The notes below the pieces were generated by a model. That model was not told where the DNA came from and searched no databases. It saw only the letters and a program-made list of their open reading frames with translations. From an uncultured Jannaschia sp. (GTDB lineage Bacteria; Pseudomonadota; Alphaproteobacteria; Rhodobacterales; Rhodobacteraceae), in the NCBI RefSeq assembly GCF_947494055.1, contig NZ_CANLTR010000005.1, forward strand, positions 124,001-188,000: a stretch of 64,000 bases of DNA, written 5' to 3'. A program made the position numbers and the translations under genes. How positions within the stretch are numbered: the first letter of the stretch is position 1; the number at the start of each line of letters is the position of its first letter. Positions 5,667-47,828 of this stretch are shown piece by piece.

Positions 5667-6683
5667 ATGAGGGCATCGTATTGCGCCGTGTCGCTCGCAG
5701 CCGCGCTGATCGCCGCGCCAGCCGTCGCGCAGGAATACAGCTGGCAGCCGGACCGTCCGATCAACATCATCGTGCCGTGGGCCGCCGGGGGCTCGACCGA
5801 TCAGGTCACGCGGGTCGTCGCGCCGATCATCGAGGAGGCGCTCGGCACGGAAGTCGTGGTGGTCAACCAGCCCGGGGCCTCCGGCTCGACGGGCACGCAG
5901 GCCGCGCTCAATGCGCCGCGCGACGGATACACCTGGACCGCGAACGCGATCGCCAACAACGCGACCTATTCGATTACCGGCCTCGTCGAAGATACCTCGA
6001 TCGAGGACTATCACATCTATCTGCATGTCGCGAACGTGCCGCTTGTCAGCGTCAACGCCGACACGGCGTACCAATCCTTCGACGAGCTGCTCGCCGCGAT
6101 GGAGGACGGGTCCGTCACCGTCGGCACCGCGGGCATAAACAGCTCGGGCGGCATGGCGCTCGCGGCGCTCAAGGAAGGCGCGGACGGGGAGCTGGGCGGT
6201 GCCCGGATGATCACCTACGACGGGGGCAACCCGGCCGTGATCGCCGCCGCGAGCGGCGAGGTCGACATGACCACGCAGCTCGCCGTAGAACAGACCGAAA
6301 TGATCCGGGGCGGCCGGCTGCGCCCTCTCACCGTTCTCTCGGACAGCGCGCTCGAAGTGGAGGGGATCGACCCCGTCCCGCCGATCACGGACTTCCTCCC
6401 CGAGTTCGAGGTGGCGGCCGATTACTTCGGCGTGTTCATCCCCGTGGGCGCGCCCGACGAGGTCTACGAGACGATGGACCAGATCTGGCAGGATCACGTG
6501 ATGAACAGCGAGGAACTCAGGACCTACGCCAACAACAACGGCGCGGTCTTCTCTCCGGATTACGGCGAGGCCGCGCTGGAAAAGGCGATGCCGGTCGTGA
6601 TCTCCGAAGCCTGTTCGCGCGTCACCCGGGGCGAGGCGGTCATCGAACCGTCCGAGATCGGGATCGACTGCTCGTCGGAATAG
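5667..6683 (+). CDS. tctC: TctC-type periplasmic solute-binding protein
   Basis: A 338-residue substrate-binding subunit of a tripartite tricarboxylate transporter. A Sec signal peptide ends at about residue 22 (PAVAQ). The mature protein has the family landmarks PINIIVPWAAGGSTDQVTR near the N-terminus and a VNQPGASGSTG loop, which in Bug proteins holds carboxylate through ordered waters. A good ribosome site (GGGAGG) precedes the ATG. tctB and tctA follow, completing the transporter. The ligand is probably a carboxylated compound, but tctC specificity is not readable from sequence. Confidence 0.93.
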   Translation: MRASYCAVSLAAALIAAPAVAQEYSWQPDRPINIIVPWAAGGSTDQVTRVVAPIIEEALGTEVVVVNQPGASGSTGTQAALNAPRDGYTWTANAIANNATYSITGLVEDTSIEDYHIYLHVANVPLVSVNADTAYQSFDELLAAMEDGSVTVGTAGINSSGGMALAALKEGADGELGGARMITYDGGNPAVIAAASGEVDMTTQLAVEQTEMIRGGRLRPLTVLSDSALEVEGIDPVPPITDFLPEFEVAADYFGVFIPVGAPDEVYETMDQIWQDHVMNSEELRTYANNNGAVFSPDYGEAALEKAMPVVISEACSRVTRGEAVIEPSEIGIDCSSE

Positions 6684-36316: not shown

Positions 36317-37468
36317 ATGGAGAACTGGCAGCGCGGGGGGTTCGGCCTCTACGTCCACTGGCCCTTCTGCGCCGCGAAATGCCCCTACTGCGATTTCAAC
36401 TCGCATGTCGTTCCGGCGGTCGACCAGGCGCGATGGCGTACCGCCCTGCTCCGCGATCTCGCTGCATGGGCCGAGCGAACCCCCGGCCGCGTCCTTGGAT
36501 CGATCTTCTTCGGAGGAGGTACGCCGTCGTTGATGGCGCCGGAGACCGTCGCAGCGATGGTGGCGGCGGCTCGAGGATATTGGATACCGGCCAACGATCT
36601 CGAAGTCACGCTCGAGGCGAACCCGACATCCGTCGAGGCGGACCGTTTCGCAGCATTCGTCGCAGCCGGGGTCAACCGCTTTTCGGTCGGCCTGCAGGCC
36701 TTGGATGATACGGATCTGCGCCGGCTCGGACGGCTGCATACGGCCGCGGAGGGCCGTAGGGCCTTCGAAGTGGCGCGCGATCTGACAGAGCGGGTCTCCT
36801 TCGACCTCATCTATGCGCGTCAGGATCAGAGCGTCGCGGCTTGGGAGGTCGAACTCACCAAAGCGCTCGACTTCGCTGGCGAGCATCTTTCACTCTATCA
36901 GTTGACCATCGAGGACGGGACCGCATTCGGCGCTCGCCATTCCGCAGGTCGTCTGCCCGGCCTACCGGACGAGGACCGTGCCGTGGATCTCTGGGCCGTC
37001 ACCCAAGATGCCACGCAGAATTCTGGCTTCATACGCTATGAGACGTCAAACCACGCCCGTACCGGCGCAGAGGCTCGTCACAACCTGATCTACTGGCGTG
37101 GGGGCGACTGGGTCGGTATCGGACCCGGGGCACATGGACGTCTTACACTTCCAGAGGGCAGGTTCGCCACGGAGGCCCTTAGAATGCCGCAAGACTGGCT
37201 CCAGGCGGCGGACCGACCTATGGCGACGACGCGGATGGATCGGCTCCGCGGAGCAGACGCCGCCGAGGAATACCTCCTCATGAGCCTGCGTATGGTCGAG
37301 GGCACCGATCTTCGGCACTTCCGCTCGCTCGGCGGATCGCTGAACGAGCAGGAAGTCTTACAGCTGACGACTGACGGATTTCTATCTTTCGAACAAGATC
37401 GCCTGCGGACAACGGAAGCGGGTGCGCTGCTGCTCGATACGATCTTGGCTCGCCTCGTATCAGGCTGA
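36317..37468 (+). CDS. hemW: Radical SAM heme chaperone HemW (HemN-like)
   Basis: A 383-residue radical SAM protein. The 4Fe-4S motif CxxxCxxC lies at C18, C22 and C25 (FCAAKCPYCDFN). GGGTPSLM is the SAM-binding GGxP-type loop. True HemN has an extra cysteine (CxxxCxxCxC) and a longer N-terminus, so HemW is preferred. GGAG precedes the ATG at 36317; a longer frame to 36221 is unsupported. Its last 9 bp overlap parB. Confidence 0.92.
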   Translation: MENWQRGGFGLYVHWPFCAAKCPYCDFNSHVVPAVDQARWRTALLRDLAAWAERTPGRVLGSIFFGGGTPSLMAPETVAAMVAAARGYWIPANDLEVTLEANPTSVEADRFAAFVAAGVNRFSVGLQALDDTDLRRLGRLHTAAEGRRAFEVARDLTERVSFDLIYARQDQSVAAWEVELTKALDFAGEHLSLYQLTIEDGTAFGARHSAGRLPGLPDEDRAVDLWAVTQDATQNSGFIRYETSNHARTGAEARHNLIYWRGGDWVGIGPGAHGRLTLPEGRFATEALRMPQDWLQAADRPMATTRMDRLRGADAAEEYLLMSLRMVEGTDLRHFRSLGGSLNEQEVLQLTTDGFLSFEQDRLRTTEAGALLLDTILARLVSG

Positions 37469-38365
37469 CACAGTCGACAAACGCGAACAGAGCTTGTCCA
37501 ACTCGTCCAGCGACGCATAGCGGATCGTCACGACACCGGCCTGCGTTTTCGAATCGTGCCGTATATCGACTGTAAGACCGAGCGCAGCCGCCAAATCTCC
37601 CTCGAGCGCTCGTGTGTCGGCATCTTTTTCCACGACCTTCGACGTCCGGGACGGCTGCGCATCCGATTCCGACGTTGCGCGAGACTTGACGAGGCGTTCC
37701 GTCTCGCGAACCGAAAGTCCGCGCGCGATAACCTGCCGCGCCAGTTCCTGAGGGTTATTCGTGCCGATCAAAGCGCGAGCATGCCCAGCCGACAATGCGC
37801 CCTCGCGAAGATGGTCCTGCACCGCATCCGGGAGTTTCAGAAGGCGCATTACATTTGCGATGTGACTCCGGGACTTGCCAAGGACATTCGACAATTGCTC
37901 TTGGGTATGGCCAAACCGATCCATGAGCTGGCGAAAGCCCTGCGCCTCCTCCATCGCGTTCAAGTCGGATCTTTGGATGTTCTCGACGATCGCGATCTCT
38001 AAGACTTCCGTATCGTCGAGTTCCCGGACGATCACCGGGAGCTCATGCAATCCGGCTCGCTGTGCTGCACGCCAGCGTCGTTCGCCCGCGACGATCTGAT
38101 AGGACGCATGGCGGACAGGATCGGGCCGCACGATCAGTGGTTGGAGTATCCCCTTTTGCGCAATCGACGAGGCCAGATCGGACAGGTCCTCCTCGCCGAA
38201 AGTCCGCCTGGGCTGATCAGGATTCGGGTGAATTGCCTCAATCGGAATGAGACGGTCGGGATTGACTGCAGGGGCGTCCGCCATTTCAGTCGCCGATACG
38301 CCGACATCTGCCATAAGCGCAGATAAGCCTCGCCGCATAGGTCGTTTCTGTACGCTATCAGGCAT
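37460..38365 (-). CDS. parB: Chromosome partitioning protein ParB
   Basis: A 301-residue ParB. The CTP-binding N-domain carries GERRWRAAQRAG (arginine patch); the helix-turn-helix lies around VLGKSRSHIANVMRLLKLP; the C-terminus dimerises. It loads at parS; two perfect sites lie at 39709 and 41598, only 1-3 kb away. It overlaps parA by 8 bp. Confidence 0.97.
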   Translation of the reverse strand: MPDSVQKRPMRRGLSALMADVGVSATEMADAPAVNPDRLIPIEAIHPNPDQPRRTFGEEDLSDLASSIAQKGILQPLIVRPDPVRHASYQIVAGERRWRAAQRAGLHELPVIVRELDDTEVLEIAIVENIQRSDLNAMEEAQGFRQLMDRFGHTQEQLSNVLGKSRSHIANVMRLLKLPDAVQDHLREGALSAGHARALIGTNNPQELARQVIARGLSVRETERLVKSRATSESDAQPSRTSKVVEKDADTRALEGDLAAALGLTVDIRHDSKTQAGVVTIRYASLDELDKLCSRLSTVSA

Positions 38366-39146
38366 GGGTCGGCTCCTTTACCCGATTTCGTTGGAGGAAC
38401 TCGCCTGCAAGCGTTCGGTAGGCGATGGCGCCCCGCGAGGTCGGATCGTAGTTCATCACCGGCATTGCGTAGCTCGGAGCTTCGCTCAACCGTACATTAC
38501 GTGGGATCTTCGTATGAAGAACCAAATCTCCAAGGTTTTGACGCGCGTCATCCTCGACTTGTTGACACAAATTGTTCCTCCGATCGAACATCGTTAAAAG
38601 GACACCTTCAATTCGCAAACCCGTATTTGCAGAACCGCGAACTTCACGAACGGTCAGCAGGAGTTGCGACAGTCCTTCGAGCGCAAAAAATTCGGCCTGC
38701 AACGGGACCAGAATCGTGTCGGATGCTACAAAAGCATTGATAGTCGTGAGATTAAGGGATGGGGGGCAATCGATCAGAACATAGTCGTACGTCGTGTCTC
38801 GGCTTCGAAGAGCGTTTCTGAGATGGACGACTCGCTTGGCGGTCGCCATTAACTCTCCGTCTGCCGAGCTGAGGTCCATATTTGCCGGGATGATACTGAG
38901 TCCCTCAATCGCTGTACTTTGTGAAGCAGCATCTGCGGAAACATCACCTAGGAGTAGGTCGTAAGTGCTTAAGAGCCGGGTGTCCCGATCCACCCCCAAG
39001 CCGGTTGATGCGTTGCCTTGTGGATCGAGATCGATAATCAAGGTTCGGTAGCCCCTCATCGCAAGAGCGGCTCCGAGATTAATGGCTGTCGTCGTTTTGC
39101 CGACCCCGCCCTTCTGGTTTGCGACTGCGACAATCTTAGCTCGCAT
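38358..39146 (-). CDS. parA: Chromosome partitioning ATPase ParA
   Basis: A 262-residue Walker-type ATPase. The deviant Walker A KGGVGKTT starts at residue 12 with the signature Lys; DLDPQGNASTGLG and LIDCPPSL follow. It moves ParB-parS complexes along the nucleoid. It overlaps rsmG by 11 bp. Confidence 0.97.
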   Translation of the reverse strand: MRAKIVAVANQKGGVGKTTTAINLGAALAMRGYRTLIIDLDPQGNASTGLGVDRDTRLLSTYDLLLGDVSADAASQSTAIEGLSIIPANMDLSSADGELMATAKRVVHLRNALRSRDTTYDYVLIDCPPSLNLTTINAFVASDTILVPLQAEFFALEGLSQLLLTVREVRGSANTGLRIEGVLLTMFDRRNNLCQQVEDDARQNLGDLVLHTKIPRNVRLSEAPSYAMPVMNYDPTSRGAIAYRTLAGEFLQRNRVKEPTHA

Positions 39147-39750
39147 CTCGTTTTTGCCTCACGTTTGTCAATCGTAGTATTGCGGCGCCTTCTTCTGTTA
39201 GGCTCGGTTCCGGCTCCAACGAGAAATCCCAGTCGATACGAGCTTCATTAACCTCATTAAGCCAGTTTCTGCCTTTCGGAAATACATGCTCCGTATCCAA
39301 CGTTCTAAACGACGCGGTGAGGGAGAGTAGGTCCCTGAGGGGCGCAAGGGCACGGGCGCTGATGGTATCCGCTGTATACCCCCTCAAGCATTCTGCGCGA
39401 GCGTTTATGACTTCAATATTCAGGTCCAACTCCCGACGAACACTCCGCAGAAAGGAACACTTCCGTGAATCACTTTCGATCAGGATTACTTTCCTTGTAC
39501 TACCCCCGATGATCGACACGACAATCCCAGGAAATCCAGCACCGGATCCGACATCATACCAATCGCCGTTCTTGCGTGATAGTCCTGACGTGTGAACTCC
39601 TTCGTAAACATGACGCTGCCAGACGTCCTCGATCGCACTTGATCCAACCAAGTTTATCGCTTCGTTCCACTTGAATAGAATTTTTACGTACTGAGCAATT
39701 TTTATAGTTGTTTCACGTGAAACATTCAAGCAGGACATATCATGCGGCAT
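39136..39750 (-). CDS. rsmG: 16S rRNA G527 N7-methyltransferase
   Basis: A 204-residue SAM methyltransferase (GidB). [15 protein letters not shown] is motif I, and [11 protein letters not shown] is the usual N-terminal block. A perfect parS site encodes its residues NVSRETT. The gene is visibly AT-richer than the distal genes. It overlaps mnmG by 11 bp. Confidence 0.95.
39709..39724. other. parS: parS site 1, inside rsmG
   Basis: TGTTTCACGTGAAACA is a perfect 16-bp palindrome identical to the consensus ParB-binding site. It lies at the 5' end of rsmG, 1.3 kb from the parB gene and 5 kb from the candidate origin. Confidence 0.95.
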
Positions 39751-41620
39751 GGCTAGACGATCGTCGGACCACTGACAGGAGCAGTAGCAATGCGGCCGGT
39801 GTCATACCTTCTAATCTAGAAGCCTGCCCAAGCGTCCTAGGTTTCGTGAGGTTAAGCTTCTGCTTTATTTCGTTGGAAAGACCATCAACGGCATCGAAGT
39901 CCATCCAGTCTGGTATCAAGATACTTTCGTTCTGCCTGAATCCCGCAATGTCCCTTTGCTGTCGTTCGAGATAAGGCTCATATTGCGCGTCAGCCGAGAT
40001 TTCCCGACGGACGTCCAACGAATATCCCTTCGCCTTCGGTATAGCGCTCTCTATGGTTTCGGGTGCAACATTGTATCGCGACATAAGAGCATACGCCGTT
40101 TTGGTAGCTGAGACCCCAAGGGATTTGGTTGATCCAAGTCGAACTTCGGCAACTTCGACGGATTCCGTCTGTAGCATCGCTCGATACGCCTCGAGTTCTT
40201 CCTGCCGTTTGGAGAAGGCATGCGCGCGCGACTCCGATACACAACCGAGTTTTATGCCTAGGGGTGTTAAACGCGTATCGGCATTATCCGCACGTAGAGA
40301 CAAACGATACTCAGCACGTGAGGTGAACATTCGATATGGTTCAGTAACACCTCGCGTCGTGAGGTCATCTGCCAAGACCCCGAAATACGACGTCGCTCGA
40401 CTGAATAGAACAGGATCCTGTAACTGAACGTATCTCGCTGCGTTTAGACCAGCCATGAGACCTTGTGCAGCGGCTTCCTCATAGCCTGTCGTCCCGTTGA
40501 TCTGTCCAGCTAAATATAGACCTGGTAACTCTGGAACATTGAATGTGACATCCAAAGAACGAGGATCAATATAGCTATACTCAATGGCATAGCCAGGCTG
40601 GACGATTTCCGCAGTCTCTAAGCCCACTATCGTACGGATATACCTCTCTTGAACCTCAACGGGTAGAGATGTCGATACCCCATTAGGATACACCCAATCG
40701 GTGCTCAGTCCTTCGGGCTCAAGAAAGACCTGATGCGAATTCTTATCCGCGAACCGCGTAACTTTGTCTTCAATAGACGGACAGTATCGCGGACCAACAC
40801 CGTCGATACTCCCGCCGAACATAGCCGAGGCTTGGATGTTCTCTCTGATTATAGCGTGGGTATCCGTATTTGTATGCGTGATGTGGCATGGAACTTGCCG
40901 CGCCGTCGGTCGCCTACAGCCGAACGAGAACATCGTCGGTTCCTCGTCACCGGGCTGAGCCAGGAGGGAGTCGAAGTCTATCGTTTGGCGCTTCAAACGT
41001 GGCGGCGTGCCTGTTTTCAGGCGCCCTATGCGAAGGCCGAAATCGCCGATCCGAGCGGCTAGGCGATTAGATGCGACACCACCGATCCGCCCACCCTCGC
41101 GGGATTCCTTTCCAATATGGATAACTCCACCTAGAAAAGTTCCAGTCGTTAGTATCACTGCCCGACCGGAAATCTCCGTACCGTCCGCCAGTTCCACACC
41201 AGAAACGACGTTATGGTGTACAGATAGATCAACAACCTCCCCCTCTACGATGTTCAGACGAGGGCACTTTTCCATCGTTGCGCGCATCGCTTGAGCATAC
41301 AGCTTCCGATCCATTTGCGCCCTCGGTCCCTGAACGGCTGGACCTTTCCTGCGATTCAGAAGACGGAATTGTATGCCTGCTCGATCAGCAATCTTCCCCA
41401 TGATCCCGTCAAAAGCGTCAATCTCCCGAACGAGATGACCTTTGCCAAGCCCGCCAATTGCAGGATTACATGACATCGCACCCAGGTCCATCTTCCGAAA
41501 GGTTATGAGACACGTCTTTGAACCAGACCGCGCTGCTGCATGCGCAGCTTCACAGCCTGCATGCCCCCCACCCACAACGATGACGTCATGATCCAATTGT
41601 TTCACGTGAAACATCGTCAC
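39740..41620 (-). CDS. mnmG: tRNA uridine-34 modification FAD protein MnmG
   Basis: A 626-residue Gid[15 protein letters not shown] is the FAD motif near residue 15; the central GTPPRLKR and C-terminal [10 protein letters not shown] blocks are characteristic. With MnmE it makes 5-carboxymethylaminomethyluridine at wobble position 34. The first codons (MTMFHVKQ) are spelled by a parS site. It overlaps mnmE by 4 bp. Confidence 0.97.
41598..41613. other. parS: parS site 2, at the 5' end of mnmG
   Basis: A second exact copy of TGTTTCACGTGAAACA, encoding FHVKQ of MnmG. The two copies are 1.9 kb apart and 3.2 kb from the candidate origin. Confidence 0.95.
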
Positions 41621-42903
41621 TTTCCTAAACAGAACGACGAGAATATCTCGTCTAAAATCCCTTCGACATCAACCCCCCCGATTATACCAGCTAACCGATC
41701 CGTGACGAACCCTACATCACTCGCAAGGAGTTCCGCCTCGTCGTCAGAGACACAACGTTCTATTCGATTGAGTTCAACGATTGCAGCGTCGACGGTCTGT
41801 AGATCGCGCGATCTTGTTACCAAGCCTGCTTCTCGGGAGAGGGACGAAGCCCGTTCAGATATCAAATTAAGAAGTTCCGGGATACCCTGACCCGTTAGCG
41901 CGGAAATTCCGCTATTCCCATCAGCGAGATCAACTTTGGATCGAAGCCGGACATCGCAATCGCGCAATGCCAGAGTAGGATCGCTGTCGCCGTCAGAGGT
42001 GTATAGAAAGACACGGAGGTCCGCCTTCTCCGCTCGGTTGCGTGCCTTCTCGACCCCGATCCTCTCTACTGGGTCGTCTGTTTTCCTCAGTCCTGCGGTG
42101 TCAATTAAGTTAATCTGGCACCCGTCAATGTCGAGTCTGACTTCGATCAAATCGCGGGTTGTCCCGGCAACTTCCGAAACAATTGCTGCGTCACTTCTCG
42201 TCAGCGCATTCAGTAGCGTGCTCTTCCCGACGTTTGGTGCTCCGATGATTGCAACATCAAATCCGTTCCGTATTTGTTCTGCAGCGCCGGAGGCGAGTAC
42301 CTGGTTCTTTAAAGACTCCTTGACGCCGCGTATCAGCTCTTTGACCTCCGGTCGGACATCCTCGGAAACATCTTCATCCGCAAAGTCAATCGTTGCCTCG
42401 AGAAGAGCGCGTGCGCGAATGAGATCGCGGCGCCATCCTTGAACCGTGCGAGTCAGTTCGCCGTCAAAAACGCGCATTGCGTGACGCCGCTGCGCTTCTG
42501 TATCTGAGTCGATCAGGTCAGCCAGACCTCGAACCTGCGTCAAGTCGAGCTGATCATTGAGTAGGGCCCGACGCGTGAACTCGCCTGGTTCTGCAAGGCG
42601 TGCTAGGCCTGTCTGTCCAATGGCGGTCAGGATCGCCTTCACGACAGCCATGCTGCCATGACACTGCAATTCCACGACGTCTTCACCTGTGAAACTTGCC
42701 CGTTCAGCGAAGTACAGGACAAGCGCTTGGTCCAACACCTCACCGTCTGAGCCGTGAAGACGACAGAGCCGCGACATCCTCGGCTCGGGGGGTTGGCCTC
42801 CTAGAGCCTTGAGGACATCAATGCTCGCCGGCCCGGATATCCGTACAATTGCGACGCCCGATTTCCCCGGCGCGGTGGCAGGTGCGTAGATCGTCTCCGA
42901 CAC
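41617..42903 (-). CDS. mnmE: tRNA modification GTPase MnmE
   Basis: A 428-residue protein. The N-terminal folate-binding domain starts [21 protein letters not shown]; the G domain has GAPNVGKST and [10 protein letters not shown]; the C-terminal CLGK box ends with FCLGK. It partners with MnmG. It follows rho by 10 bp on the same strand. Confidence 0.97.
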
Positions 42904-42913
42904 GACCGTGCCG

Positions 42914-44230
42914 TCAGGAATTCATGGATTCGAAGAAGTCCGAATTCGTCTTCGTCTGCTTCAACTTGCCGATCAGGAACTCGATCGCGTCCGTCGTTCC
43001 CATCGGGTTCAAAATACGACGTAGGACAAAAGTCTTCTGGAGGTTCTTGGGATTGACCAGAAGATCCTCCTTTCGCGTACCGGACTTCAGAATATCCATC
43101 GCGGGGAAGACACGCTTGTCCGCCACCTTGCGATCAAGCACGATCTCGCTGTTACCAGTACCCTTGAACTCTTCGAAGATCACCTCGTCCATACGGCTCC
43201 CGGTATCGATCAGGGCCGTCGCGATAATCGTCAAAGAGCCACCCTCCTCGATATTACGGGCAGCGCCGAAGAAGCGCTTCGGCCGCTGGAGGGCGTTTGC
43301 ATCGACGCCGCCGGTAAGAACCTTGCCAGAGGAGGGCACCACGGTATTGAAGGCACGACCGAGGCGCGTGATCGAATCGAGCAAGATGACGACATCGCGT
43401 TTGTGCTCGACGAGACGCTTGGCCTTCTCGATCACCATCTCGCTGACAGCGACGTGGCGGGTAGCCGGCTCATCGAAGGTCGAGGAAATGACCTCGCCTT
43501 TCACGGATCGTTGCATATCCGTGACTTCTTCTGGACGTTCGTCAATCAACAGAACCATGAGGTAACACTCGGGATGGTTCGTTTCGATAGACTTGGCTAT
43601 ATTCTGCAGGAGGACGGTCTTGCCTGTCCGAGGCGGGGCAACGATCAAAGATCGCTGACCTTTCCCGATGGGTGCGACAAGATCGATGATCCGGGCGGAG
43701 CGATCCTTGATGGTCGGATCCTCGATCTCCATGCTGAAACGCTCGTCGGGATAGAGCGGCGTCAGGTTATCAAAGCTAACCTTGTGCTTCGCCATTTCCG
43801 GATCGGCGAAGTTGATCTGGGTCACCTTGACGATTGCGAAGTACCGTTCGTTATCGTCCGGCGCCTGGATGACACCCTCGACGGTATCGCCGGTGCGCAA
43901 CGAATGGGCACGAATAACGTCGGGGGAAAGATAGATGTCGTCGGGGCCAGGCAGGTAGTTCGCCTCAGGCGCCCGCAGGAACCCGAACCCGTCCTGCAGG
44001 ACCTCGAGCACGCCTTCGCCCGAGATCTCCCAACCCTCATCGGCCCGCTCGCGCAGGATGGAGAACATCATCTCGCCCTTGCGCATGGTCGAGGCGTTCT
44101 CGATCTCCAGTTCCTCGGCCATGTCCACCAGCGCCTTCGGCGACATCGCCTTGAGGTCGCGGAGGTTCAACGTTTCGGCAGGGCCGGCTTCCGGAGACGT
44201 CGGTTCGGTGGGATACTCGTCATCGCGCAT
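42914..44230 (-). CDS. rho: Transcription termination factor Rho
   Basis: A 438-residue hexameric RNA helicase. The RNA-binding domain (about 60-140) precedes the ATPase domain with [12 protein letters not shown] and [13 protein letters not shown]. The N-terminal 25 residues are longer than E. coli Rho and acidic. The ATG at 44230 has GAGG 7 nt upstream and is preferred over the 44266 start. Confidence 0.97.
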
Positions 44231-44279
44231 GTCATTGCCTCGCAGCGGCATGGCCCCGCTCCCCAAATGGTATAGCGAC

Positions 44280-44336
44280 GCCTCAATTGTGTTTTGGAGA
44301 TCGGCATTCCGGGCCAGGACGGCCCACCGTTGAGGC
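44280..44336. repeat. Nested hairpin in rho leader
   Basis: GCCTCAA (44280-44286) pairs with TTGAGGC (44330-44336). Inside, GGGCC (44311-44315) pairs with GGCCC (44321-44325). The stem-loop lies between hemJ and rho on the minus strand transcript, so it may regulate rho or end hemJ; no T-tract is present. Confidence 0.4.
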
Positions 44337-44366
44337 TCAGCTATGCGCTGAGATCCGGGAAGTCAA

Positions 44367-44804
44367 TCAGAACGGTCGAGCGATCACTGAAATCACGATG
44401 ACCACCATCAGCACCGTCGGCACCTCGTTCATCATCCGGTAGCGCCGCCCATCGAGCTTGGCCGTACCGGCTACCAGCCGCTTCCGCTCGCTTGCGCACC
44501 AGATATGAAATGCCGTCATCGCAAGAACGCTGGCGGCCTTCACCCAAGGCCAACCCTCGTTCCAGTCGACCACGCCGAGGGCGATCAGGGAAAGCCCGAA
44601 AGTCCATGCCGCGATCATTGCCGGCAGCATGATCGCCCGCAGGAGCCGACGTTCCATGACCTCGAGAACGGGGATCATGTCCGGGACGAGGGCGCTCTGC
44701 TCCGCGTGGTACACGAACAGACGCGGCAGATAGAAGATGCCTGCCATCCACGCGATGACTGAGATCACGTGTCCAGCTTTCAACCAGAGATAGAGATCTG
44801 CCAA
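44367..44804 (-). CDS. hemJ: Protoporphyrinogen oxidase HemJ
   Basis: A 145-residue protein with four membrane helices. Conserved histidines: KAGHVISVIAWMAG near residue 12 and FHIWCASERKR near 100, likely heme ligands. HemJ catalyses the oxidation of protoporphyrinogen IX. The start is TTG at 44804 with AGGAGG 7 nt upstream. Confidence 0.9.
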   Translation of the reverse strand: MADLYLWLKAGHVISVIAWMAGIFYLPRLFVYHAEQSALVPDMIPVLEVMERRLLRAIMLPAMIAAWTFGLSLIALGVVDWNEGWPWVKAASVLAMTAFHIWCASERKRLVAGTAKLDGRRYRMMNEVPTVLMVVIVISVIARPF

Positions 44805-45194
44805 CTGCGCTCCTCCTGCGCCGTCTCCTACCAGTCAAAAAGAAAGAAAGAAGATGAAGTTGTTTGTAGGGCCTGTGAGAGTCGGGGATTAAAGGTTTTC
44901 AACAGGAAATGCATAGCTGGGGAGAACGTCGATGCGCGGGATCCCGAGGTCGGGGATAAAGCGAGAATAGCACGGCTTTCATGGGCTGACTGCTTGTGGA
45001 GAATGTTGGGGACGATGCGAGCCACGCCATGTACGGATCCGTTCCTGCACATCCCGGTATCAAACGTTCCACCGGCGGAGAACACGTCGGTGAGGCGGGG
45101 AGAACGCCCGACTTGTCCTCGACCACGCGTCCGGTCATTCCTCCCACATGGTTTCCGACAAGCTTCTCCCGCCGGTTCCTCACAGGGTTGTCCC
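44805..45194. other. oriC: Candidate chromosomal replication origin (oriC), no gene
   Basis: This 390-bp gap separates leftward hemJ-rho-mnmE-mnmG from rightward maf-aroE-coaE-dnaQ. It holds an A-rich purine tract (44835-44870) and iterated 9-mers related to the DnaA box TGTGGATAA: 44883, 44918, 44951, 44995 (TGTGGAGAA, one mismatch), 45007, 45074 and 45096, all in one orientation. Spacings are 35, 33, 44, 12, 67 and 22 bp, close to multiples of 11. The parS sites, parAB and gene polarity support an origin. No perfect DnaA box was seen. Confidence 0.6.
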
Positions 45195-45776
45195 ATGCTG
45201 ATCCTCGCCTCGACGTCGGAGACGCGTCGCATGTTGCTGGCCAATGCCGCGATCCCGTTCGAGGCGCGCCCGTCGCGCGTGGACGAGGCACTGGTGCGGG
45301 ATGCGCTGTTGGCCGAAGGGCACGGGCCGCGGGAGATCGCCGACGCGCTGGCCGAGATGAAGGCGCTCCGGGTACGAGCCCCGGGTCTCGTCCTCGGCTG
45401 CGACCAGACTGCGGACCATGACGGCACGCTCCTGTCGAAGCCGGGCACACAGGAAGAAGCCGTCGCGCAACTCCGTCGCCTGTCCGGCGGAACGCATCGC
45501 CTCCATTCCGCTGCGGTCGTTGCGGAAGCCGGCCGGCCGGTCTGGCGTCACGTTGCGACCGTGCGCATGGACATGCGGTTGGCGTCAGAGGCCTATCTAC
45601 AGGAATACGTGAGCCGGAACTGGGACGAGATCCGTCACTCTGCCGGAAGCTACACGCTCGAGGGGGAGGGCGCGCGTCTGTTCCATCGGGTGGAAGGCGA
45701 TTACTTCGCCGTGCTCGGCTTGCCGCTCCTGCCGCTCATCGATTTCCTGATCACCCGCGGGGAGATCGCGGCATGA
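45195..45776 (+). CDS. maf: Maf nucleotide pyrophosphatase
   Basis: A 193-residue house-cleaning enzyme of the Maf family. LILASTSETRRMLL is the S-x-x-R-R-type substrate loop, VLGCDQTADHDG the catalytic Asp loop, and SKPGTQEEAVAQLRRLSGGTH follows as usual. The ATG at 45195 lies in the longer frame from 44769, whose first part is non-coding. It is the first gene of the plus-strand coupled operon. Confidence 0.92.
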   Translation: MLILASTSETRRMLLANAAIPFEARPSRVDEALVRDALLAEGHGPREIADALAEMKALRVRAPGLVLGCDQTADHDGTLLSKPGTQEEAVAQLRRLSGGTHRLHSAAVVAEAGRPVWRHVATVRMDMRLASEAYLQEYVSRNWDEIRHSAGSYTLEGEGARLFHRVEGDYFAVLGLPLLPLIDFLITRGEIAA

Positions 45777-46588
45777 GCGTCCTGGCCGGCGTCATCGGCG
45801 ACCCGATCGGGCACAGCCGGTCGCCCCGCCTGCACGGGCACTGGCTCGCGCGCTACGGCATCGACGGGCATTACGTCCCGCTCCGCGTGCCGGCGGCCGA
45901 TCTCGACGAGACGCTCCGCTTGTTGCCGCGGCTCGGCTTCGCCGGCATCAACGTGACCATCCCGCACAAGGAGGCCGTCTTCGATCGTGCCGACGAGGTG
46001 ACGGACCGGGCGCGCGCCGTCGGGGCGGCGAACACGCTGGTCTTCCGCGACGGCCGCATCCACGCCGACAACACCGACGGGATCGGCTTTCTCGCGAACC
46101 TGCGACAGGGCGCACCGAACTGGCAAAGCGACCGTCCGGCTATGGTTCTCGGCGCGGGCGGCGCGGCGCGGGGGATCGTGGATGCGCTACTGACGGCGGG
46201 CGTGCCCGGGGTGACGCTCGCCAACCGGACCACCGCGCGGGCGGAAGCGCTCGCGGACATCTTCGGTGACTGGACACAGGTCGTTCCCTGGACGGAAGTT
46301 TCGGACGCACTGGCGGGGCAGGGGCTCCTGGTCAACACGACCAGCCTCGGCATGACGGAGCAGCCGCCCCTGACACTCGACCTGCATGCATTGCCGGAGG
46401 AGGCCGTGGTGACCGACATCGTCTATACGCCGCTCGCGACGCCGCTCCTGCGCGCGGCCGCCGCGCGGGGCAACCCGGTCGTGGACGGTCTCGGCATGCT
46501 GCTGCATCAGGCCGTCCCTGGCTTCGCGGCATGGTTCGGCACGACGCCCGAGGTCGATGACGACCTTCGCCGGGCGGTGCTTGCGTGA
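45773..46588 (+). CDS. aroE: Shikimate 5-dehydrogenase
   Basis: A 271-residue NADP-dependent enzyme. [16 protein letters not shown] carries the shikimate-binding S-x-S, NVTIPHKE the catalytic Lys, and [15 protein letters not shown] the NADP motif. It converts 3-dehydroshikimate to shikimate. It overlaps maf and coaE by 4 bp. Confidence 0.96.
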
Positions 46589-47151
46589 TCCTCGGACTGA
46601 CCGGGTCGATCGGCATGGGGAAGTCTACGACCGCCGAAATGTTCCGCGAACTCGGCGTGCCGGTCTGGGATGCGGATGCCACCGTACACCAACTCTACGC
46701 CGCAGGGGGCGCAGCGGTCGCGCCGATGGCAACGGCATTCCCAAAGGCGGTGCGAAACGGCGCCGTGGACCGCGAAGTCCTGCGCCGCATCGTCGCCGCT
46801 GACCCCGACGTGCTTCCGAAGATCGAAGCCATCGTGCATCCCCTCGTGGCGGCGCACCGCATGACCTTCCTCGAGGCCGATGCTCCTCTCGTCGTGCTCG
46901 ATATTCCGCTCCTCTTCGAGACCGGCGCGAACGCGCAGGTCGATCGCGTCGCCGTCGTCAGCGCCCCGCCGGAGGTGCAGAAGTCCCGCGTCCTCGGCCG
47001 TGGCACGATGACGGAGGCGGAGTTCGAAACCATCCTGTCGCGGCAGGTGCCGGATGCTGACAAGCGGGCACAAGCCGACTACATCATCGAGACGACCGAC
47101 ATGGGGACGGCGCGCGCCACCGTCGCGACCATCGTGAAGGAGCTGACGTGA
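46585..47151 (+). CDS. coaE: Dephospho-CoA kinase
   Basis: A 188-residue P-loop kinase with a GTG start. [16 protein letters not shown] is Walker [14 protein letters not shown] is the conserved CoA-binding block. It performs the last step of CoA synthesis. It overlaps both neighbours by 4 bp. Confidence 0.95.
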
Positions 47152-47828
47152 GAGAGATCGTCCTCGATACCGAGACGACCGGGTTCGAGCCGGAGACCGG
47201 CGACCGGATCGTGGAGATCGGCGCGGTCGAACTCGTCAACCACGTCGCCACGGGCGAGATCTATCACCAGTACATCAACCCCGAACGGAGCATGCCGCAG
47301 GGTGCGTTCGAGGTGCACGGGTTGGGCGACGACTTCCTGAAGGACTATCCGGTCTTTCGGCAGGTCGGGCAGGCGTTCCTCGACTTCATCGGCGACTCGA
47401 AGCTCGTGATCCACAATGCCGCCTTCGACATGAAGTTCCTGAATGCGGAACTCGAATGGATGGGCTTGCCGCGCCTGCCGATGGACCGGGCGATCGACAC
47501 GCTGGGCATCGCGCGGGCCAAGTTCCCCGGCGCGCCGGCCTCGCTCGATGCGCTCTGCCGCCGGTTCGGTGTCGACAACTCGTCGCGTACCAAGCACGGC
47601 GCGCTTCTCGACAGCGAGATCCTGGCGGAAGTCTATCTGGAGCTGATCGGCGGGCGGCAGCCGACCATGTCGCTGGTCGCGCAGGGCACGAGTCGGCAGA
47701 CGGGGCAGGGCAACTGGACGCCCGGCCCGCGACCCGTGCCCCTGCCGCCGCGCATTTCGGAGGCAGAACGCGTCGCCCATGCCGCCTTCGTCGACGGCCT
47801 GGGCGACGGGGCGCTCTGGCGGCGCTAG
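47148..47828 (+). CDS. dnaQ: DNA polymerase III epsilon (proofreading) subunit
   Basis: A 226-residue DEDDh exonuclease starting at [13 protein letters not shown] gives Asp and Glu, [10 protein letters not shown] the second Asp, and [10 protein letters not shown] the His and last Asp. It is the last gene of the maf-aroE-coaE-dnaQ run and ends 1 bp from convergent secB. Confidence 0.95.

Follow-up and report, generated by a model that had tools for sequence, protein, structure and literature searches.

In the Alphaproteobacteria, the chromosomal origin of replication (oriC) of Caulobacter and Rickettsia is described as lying within the hemE gene cluster (PMC4741004, citing Brassinga 2001), and the gap in this cluster serves as a landmark when origins are sought in this class (PMC4741004). 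The origin of Caulobacter crescentus (Cori) is reported to carry weak W-boxes (TCCCCA) and G-boxes (TGATCCACA) (PMC4285127, PMC4468827), and a basal origin unwinding system with DnaA-trios is described for Bacillus subtilis (PMC8287927). GC skew served to place Rhodobacter sphaeroides oriC1 and the Dinoroseobacter shibae ori, aided by partition loci in the first case and by a database entry in the second (PMC6315104, PMC6473078). A survey that covered 179 closed genomes states that the proximity of dnaA to ori is conserved in Rhodobacterales; the same source suggests parAB as an anchor for origin curation, with some exceptions in Rhodobacterales (PMC8116508). A limited literature search combining Jannaschia and oriC returned titles on taxonomy and hopanoids.

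Here, we analysed a 64-kb stretch of DNA (the window) from a 4.75-Mb assembly of 276 contigs, which by Maf comes closest to Jannaschia species among named genomes. A first-pass annotation of the window had proposed a candidate chromosomal origin in the gap between hemJ and maf (Table 1), and we consider it very probable from the sequence that this gap is the oriC of a Jannaschia species. Like the hemE-cluster origins, it lies in a conserved gene cluster, is noncoding and holds DnaA boxes together with a putative unwinding element (PMC4741004). In contrast to them, it is bordered by hemJ, not hemE, and maf follows directly.

Table 1 Coordinates of the candidate origin and its neighbours in the window
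Feature	Position	Strand	Remark
Candidate oriC: hemJ/maf intergenic region	44805-45194	.	390 bp, 57% G+C vs 66% G+C in the window
hemJ (UPF0093), left border	44367-44804	-	PF03653, E 2.6e-55
maf, right border	45195-45776	+	PF02545, E 1.1e-41
parA	38358-39146	-	PF13614, E 1.9e-59
parB	37460-38365	-	PF02195 + PF17762
parS site TGTTTCACGTGAAACA	39709-39724	.	perfect 14-mer core, one of the genome's two
parS site TGTTTCACGTGAAACA	41598-41613	.	perfect 14-mer core, the other of the genome's two
A-rich purine tract, then GATGAAG...TTTGTAGGG	44837-44871	+	candidate unwinding element / DnaA-trio-like tract
DnaA-box-like 9-mer CGGGGATTA (box 2), adjoins tract	44883-44891	+	CGGGGA in register in 21/21 Jannaschia origins
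W-box-like 9-mer TGGGGAGAA	44918-44926	+	in register in 2/21: window and closest relative (L005)
DnaA-box-like 9-mer CGGGGATAA	44951-44959	+	NG[GT]GGA in register in 16/21
Candidate DnaA box TGTGGAGAA, one mismatch from TGTGGATAA	44995-45003	+	in register in 12/21
W-box-like 9-mer TGGGGACGA, 12 bp after box 44995	45007-45015	+	in register in 10/21
GGCGGAGAA, first-pass site, probably not a box	45074-45082	+	two mismatches; NG[GT]GGA in register in 2/21, window not among them
CGGGGAGAA, exact to first-pass consensus, not conserved	45096-45104	+	in register in 1/21, the window itself

As the first-pass annotation had stated, the flanking genes diverge from the gap, and parA, parB and two parS sites lie nearby. 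Further genes on the left are rho, mnmE, mnmG and rsmG, and those on the right are aroE, coaE and dnaQ. Pfam searches covered hemJ, maf, rho, aroE, parB, parA and mnmE; hemJ is the name that we assume for the UPF0093 gene, the names mnmG, rsmG, coaE and dnaQ are our assignments from the translations, and the parS palindromes were matched to the parS consensus. The 14-bp parS core occurs twice in the whole genome, 3.2 and 5.1 kb from the gap. Among six genomes scanned, five carried exactly two copies, each time ~3.6 and ~5.5 kb from maf, and the sixth (G083, another family) carried none. Both marks of an alphaproteobacterial origin cluster were found, namely conserved neighbours and parAB/parS near the gap. 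An Rfam search of the gap gave no match, nor did IHF-like patterns in the region; strand folding was not unusual (z 1.5 toward the less stable side). We also observed that third-codon-position G+C is 0.51-0.56 in parA, rsmG, mnmG and mnmE, 0.75-0.77 in rho and hemJ and 0.81-0.89 from maf to dnaQ, a one-sided drop beside the origin (38358-44804 vs 45195-47828). A drop on the same side appears in 1-kb G+C at the named Jannaschia loci L034-L036, L039 and L041, and less so at L037.

The position of the gap was read in 110 maf loci, made up of the best 30 from the 97 of 120 genomes with Maf (own genome included) and the best 80 of 334 candidates from a search of named genomes. As these were chosen as the best Maf matches, the sample is biased toward close relatives. 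Two gaps were cut by contig ends. In all 108 complete loci, window included, a gap of 372-541 bp lies upstream of maf, and 103 of these gaps measure 372-456 bp; the left neighbour is hemJ in 101 loci and rho in seven. The complete gaps amount to 100 distinct sequences, 21 from Jannaschia (20 genus genomes plus J. formosa) and 79 from others. We additionally read 38 more distant family members (34 + 4). In four of these Rhodobacteraceae (G020, G023, G034 and G230; loci L274, L276, L284 and L315), a coding gene stands directly upstream of maf, and the origin gap is therefore not adjacent to maf there; these genomes were left out of the GGGGA and GTGGA counts by DnaA residue below. The gene is a Kinase-PPPase by Pfam in both cases tested (G034 and G230). 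By eye, a gene also directly precedes maf in five of six non-family alphaproteobacteria.

Within the gap, the order from the hemJ side begins with an A-rich purine tract, followed by GATGA or a similar motif, then TAGGG and finally box 2. The tract, which had been placed at one end of the gap, is indeed found at 44837-44854, and together with the adjoining box CGGGGA (21/21) it makes up the best conserved parts in Jannaschia. The 30 bp from 44835 are 73% A+T in a window of 66% G+C, a candidate AT-rich unwinding element. A regular expression for the tract matched 19 of the 21 origins from Jannaschia and 53 of the 79 from others, whereas resampling gave a mean of 6.3 matches (max 12) per 100 origins. 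The combined pattern of tract and CGGGGAT, which was drawn from this site, occurs once in its own genome, at the gap (control 0).

Box-like hexamers are likewise enriched. In the 21 Jannaschia origins, YGKGGA occurs 71 times on the plus strand, fourfold over a Markov mean of 17.5 (max 30 of 200), and 38 times on the minus strand, twofold over 17.5 (max 29). The 79 other origins hold 164 copies on the plus and 186 on the minus strand, ~4-fold over ~42 on both (max 63 and 59); the plus-strand copies fall mainly into the second and fifth eighths of the gap and the minus-strand copies mainly into the last eighth, next to maf. The gap of the window retains no YGKGGA on the minus strand. The box beside the tract was called by regular expression in 49 of the 79 others (TGTGGAT or CGTGGAT in 42, other GTGGA in seven). 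The expression is incomplete outside Jannaschia, with 30 of 79 uncalled (26 without tract, four without box), and by eye some of these carry TGGGGAT beside the tract (L097, L102). In the Jannaschia origins L013, L015 and L019, CTGTGGA was seen by eye to face CTCCACAG at a distance of ~50 bp, which resembles a pair of DnaA boxes in opposite orientation.

The first-pass annotation had described seven 9-mers of the form (T/C)GGGGA(T/G)AA, all in one orientation and on one helix face. All seven are present on the plus strand (Table 1), but the form is exact only at 44918, 44951 and 45096; the sites at 44883 and 44995 have one mismatch and those at 45007 and 45074 have two. Three exact matches within 390 bp were found nowhere else in the window and in none of 2000 Markov resamples, and no other 390 bp of the 64 kb hold five GGGGA on one strand. 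The count of seven loose matches (≤2 mismatches, one strand) is weaker, as 18 of 2000 resamples attained it and three loose matches also lie on the minus strand of the gap. Another 390-bp stretch, starting at 6217, also reaches seven loose matches to YGGGGAKAA on one strand. The claim that the best site lies one mismatch from the DnaA box is correct (TGTGGAGAA vs TGTGGATAA). The exact box is absent from the 64-kb window, and the genome holds eight perfect DnaA boxes, no more than the ten in the reversed control.

The case for a common helix face is weak: the resultant reaches 0.76 with a period of 11 bp and falls to 0.17 with one of 10.5 bp (P ~0.02 for whichever period fits better), and three of the seven sites lack conservation. 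Scoring NG[GT]GGA in the alignment of the 21 Jannaschia origins, we found one site invariant in the genus, one common, two in about half of the origins and three not conserved. The cluster of boxes is real, but with sites so unequal in fit and conservation the listed set is not one family. The seven 9-mers as a single iteron family on one helix face are thus unsupported by phasing and conservation.

Compared to Cori, the commonest box form in the gap is also a GGGGA-type putative weak DnaA site (PMC4285127, PMC4468827). TGGGGA, the W-box on the other strand, is exact at 44918 and 45007, and CGGGGA, one base off, stands at 44883, 44951 and 45096. Different from Cori, a GGGGA site holds the tract-proximal position in Jannaschia, and unlike in a Caulobacter-type, CtrA-controlled origin, there are no CtrA sites (TTAAN7TTAA) in the 64-kb window. 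With the DnaA-trio system, the locus shares the order of tract, spacer and box on the matching strand (PMC8287927). The unwinding rule given for that system requires a box with ≤2 mismatches and, 0-16 bp away from it, at least three NAN trinucleotides (PMC8287927). With the E. coli box, this rule picked out 15 of 21 Jannaschia origins (resample mean 1.0, max 2 of 30) and 41 of the 79 others (resamples 13.2, max 20); the box falls within the hemJ-proximal 45% in 14 of the former and 22 of the latter. In the window, the rule returned only a candidate with box 44918 and none at the conserved tract. When CGGGGATTA was set as the standard box instead, the rule returned 3 of 21, no more than the resamples (2.2, max 6), which counts against CGGGGA being the box of this rule.

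Because the source assembly is in 276 contigs, replichore polarity was read in two relatives, G014 (same genus, a single contig of 3.32 Mb; 100 stretches of 20 kb, ~60% sampled) and QY30 (40 stretches, ~23% of the genome sampled). GC skew with partition loci or a database entry was also the locator for R. sphaeroides oriC1 and the D. shibae ori (PMC6315104, PMC6473078). In G014, where maf lies at 1.632 Mb, the interpolated cumulative GC skew reaches its minimum at 1.65 Mb, and among two-arm splits the one at 1.66 Mb scores best (t 7.73; 7.65 at 1.64 and 7.51 at 1.62). A sparser sample of 40 stretches had given a misleading minimum at 2.335 Mb. The octamer GGGNAGGG, which we take to be a polar sequence of the FtsK-orienting type, favours 1.66-1.70 Mb in G014, 30-70 kb off maf, with the best split at 1.70 (t 13.6 vs 12.1-13.3 at 1.62-1.66). 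In QY30, its switch at 20-80 kb brackets maf at 50 kb, and plain GC skew favours 100-180 kb, 50-130 kb off maf. The octamer counts in the two arms are 205:55 and 63:234 in G014 and 84:14 and 14:104 in QY30; the window itself has one plus and seven minus copies left of 45000 and eight plus and one minus copies right of it. The first-pass annotation had named a GC-skew minimum elsewhere as a refutation; by GC skew, the switch is near maf in G014 (1.65-1.66 Mb) and 50-130 kb away in QY30. In these two sampled relatives, three of four measures place the switch within ~70 kb of the gap; polarity resolves poorly, not below tens of kb.

This resolution bears on the first alternative, that the gap is a mere divergent promoter or regulatory region of hemJ and maf, with the origin elsewhere within ~100 kb. 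The divergence of the two genes fits such a region, and polarity cannot separate sites that are less than tens of kb apart. However, the gap keeps a near-constant length in the 108 loci and persists where rho replaces hemJ, and boxes are enriched on both strands. A scan of the gap for a sigma-70-like promoter and a terminator found neither, a weak argument as such scans miss other promoters. We thus regard a mere promoter region as quite unlikely.

Even less probable, to the point of being nearly negligible, is an origin at dnaA with the hemJ/maf gap as a secondary DnaA-binding or titration locus. In its favour, the contigs of G004, G008, G022 and G068 start ~1 kb before the dnaA match, and the published survey puts dnaA generally close to ori in Rhodobacterales (PMC8116508). 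However, dnaA of G014, at 2.092 Mb, is 0.46 Mb away from maf and 0.4 Mb away from the split that skew favours, and the parS cores lie at maf in five of six genomes. The own dnaA is on a different contig, and the 3.5 kb around it hold three loose box matches and no cluster. That the gap encodes an N-terminal extension of Maf can practically be dismissed: in the frame of maf, an ORF runs from 44769 to 45776, but gap lengths are not kept to multiples of three, the conserved blocks are box-like DNA and not codons, and Maf homology starts at residue 1-3 in all but one among the matches listed.

Since the position is conserved, boxes cluster, parS sites are close by and polarity in the two relatives switches near the gap, the reading of the gap as a chromosomal origin is well supported, and it is in these features, read from genome sequence, that the first-pass proposal appears justified. 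Counted against it are the poor polarity resolution, the four family genomes without the gap, the lack of a perfect DnaA box in the window and the failure of the unwinding rule to pick out the window's own tract. We infer DnaA binding, the start site of unwinding and the order of assembly as follows. DnaA would bind the sites at 44883, 44951, 44995 and 45007, most of them weak and W-box-like, and an oligomer may then extend from box 44883, by way of TAGGG, to the A-rich purine/GATGA tract (44837-44871). The duplex would open at the tract for helicase loading, with forks departing both ways. The copied origins would then be segregated by ParB bound to the two parS sites, which lie 3-5 kb left of the gap.

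The spelling of box 2 raises the question of its reader. In E. coli DnaA, residues 399, 423, 432-435 and 438-439 are reported to contact bases specifically, and 439 is mostly His (PMC5043019). All 20 Jannaschia-genus genomes (G000-G019) have Tyr at this position, while 52 other family members comprise 32 with His, two with Tyr and 18 unmatched by the pattern. A family-wide draw of 394 genomes matched Tyr439 in two Jannaschia and six others. A pattern for residue 439, applied to 15 of the 18 unmatched family genomes and G083, matched in 7 of these 16, and the matches were not DnaA-like. The ratio of GGGGA to GTGGA is 96:59 in Jannaschia (20 origins; GGGGA share 0.62) and 57:99 in His439 genera (27; 0.37). 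It is 10:14 in other Tyr439 genera (5; 0.42), which resemble the His group, and 28:62 where the residue was unread (12; 0.31). G+C is a confounder, as gaps average 58% in Jannaschia and 47% in the His group; five His-group gaps at ≥54% G+C gave 15:25. By eye, the other Tyr439 genera G030 and G368 have CCGGGGAT and TGGGGATTA, but G411 has TGTGGATTG. TGGGGAT beside the tract was also seen by eye with His439 (G039, G054 and G066) and with the residue unread (G045, G065, L097 and L102); GGGGA at this place is therefore not confined to Jannaschia. CGGGGA, with both changes, was seen outside Jannaschia only in G030.

Tyr439 was rejected as a general cause of GGGGA boxes, as the five other Tyr genera as a group lack the box shift; their resemblance to the His group also means that the association of Tyr439 with GGGGA rests on one clade. 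The link between Tyr439 and CGGGGA is a lead, not a result. It is unlikely that Jannaschia rewrote its initiation code, with CGGGGA at box 2, a change from His439 to Tyr in the recognition helix and a DnaA that reads GGGGA-type sites weak in relatives. If true, domain IV of Tyr439 DnaA would prefer CGGGGATTA (CGGGGA) over TGTGGATTA, compared to the His439 form.

Together, the locus appears as an ordinary alphaproteobacterial origin in which the box nearest the tract is spelled in a genus-specific way. The wider survey gave no support for initiator-origin co-evolution as a general rule. Within Jannaschia, the CGGGGA shift at one fixed box and the genus-wide change at a DnaA residue that contacts DNA may offer a testable case of such co-evolution, and the tract with CGGGGA upstream of maf would be a practical origin landmark for fragmentary assemblies.
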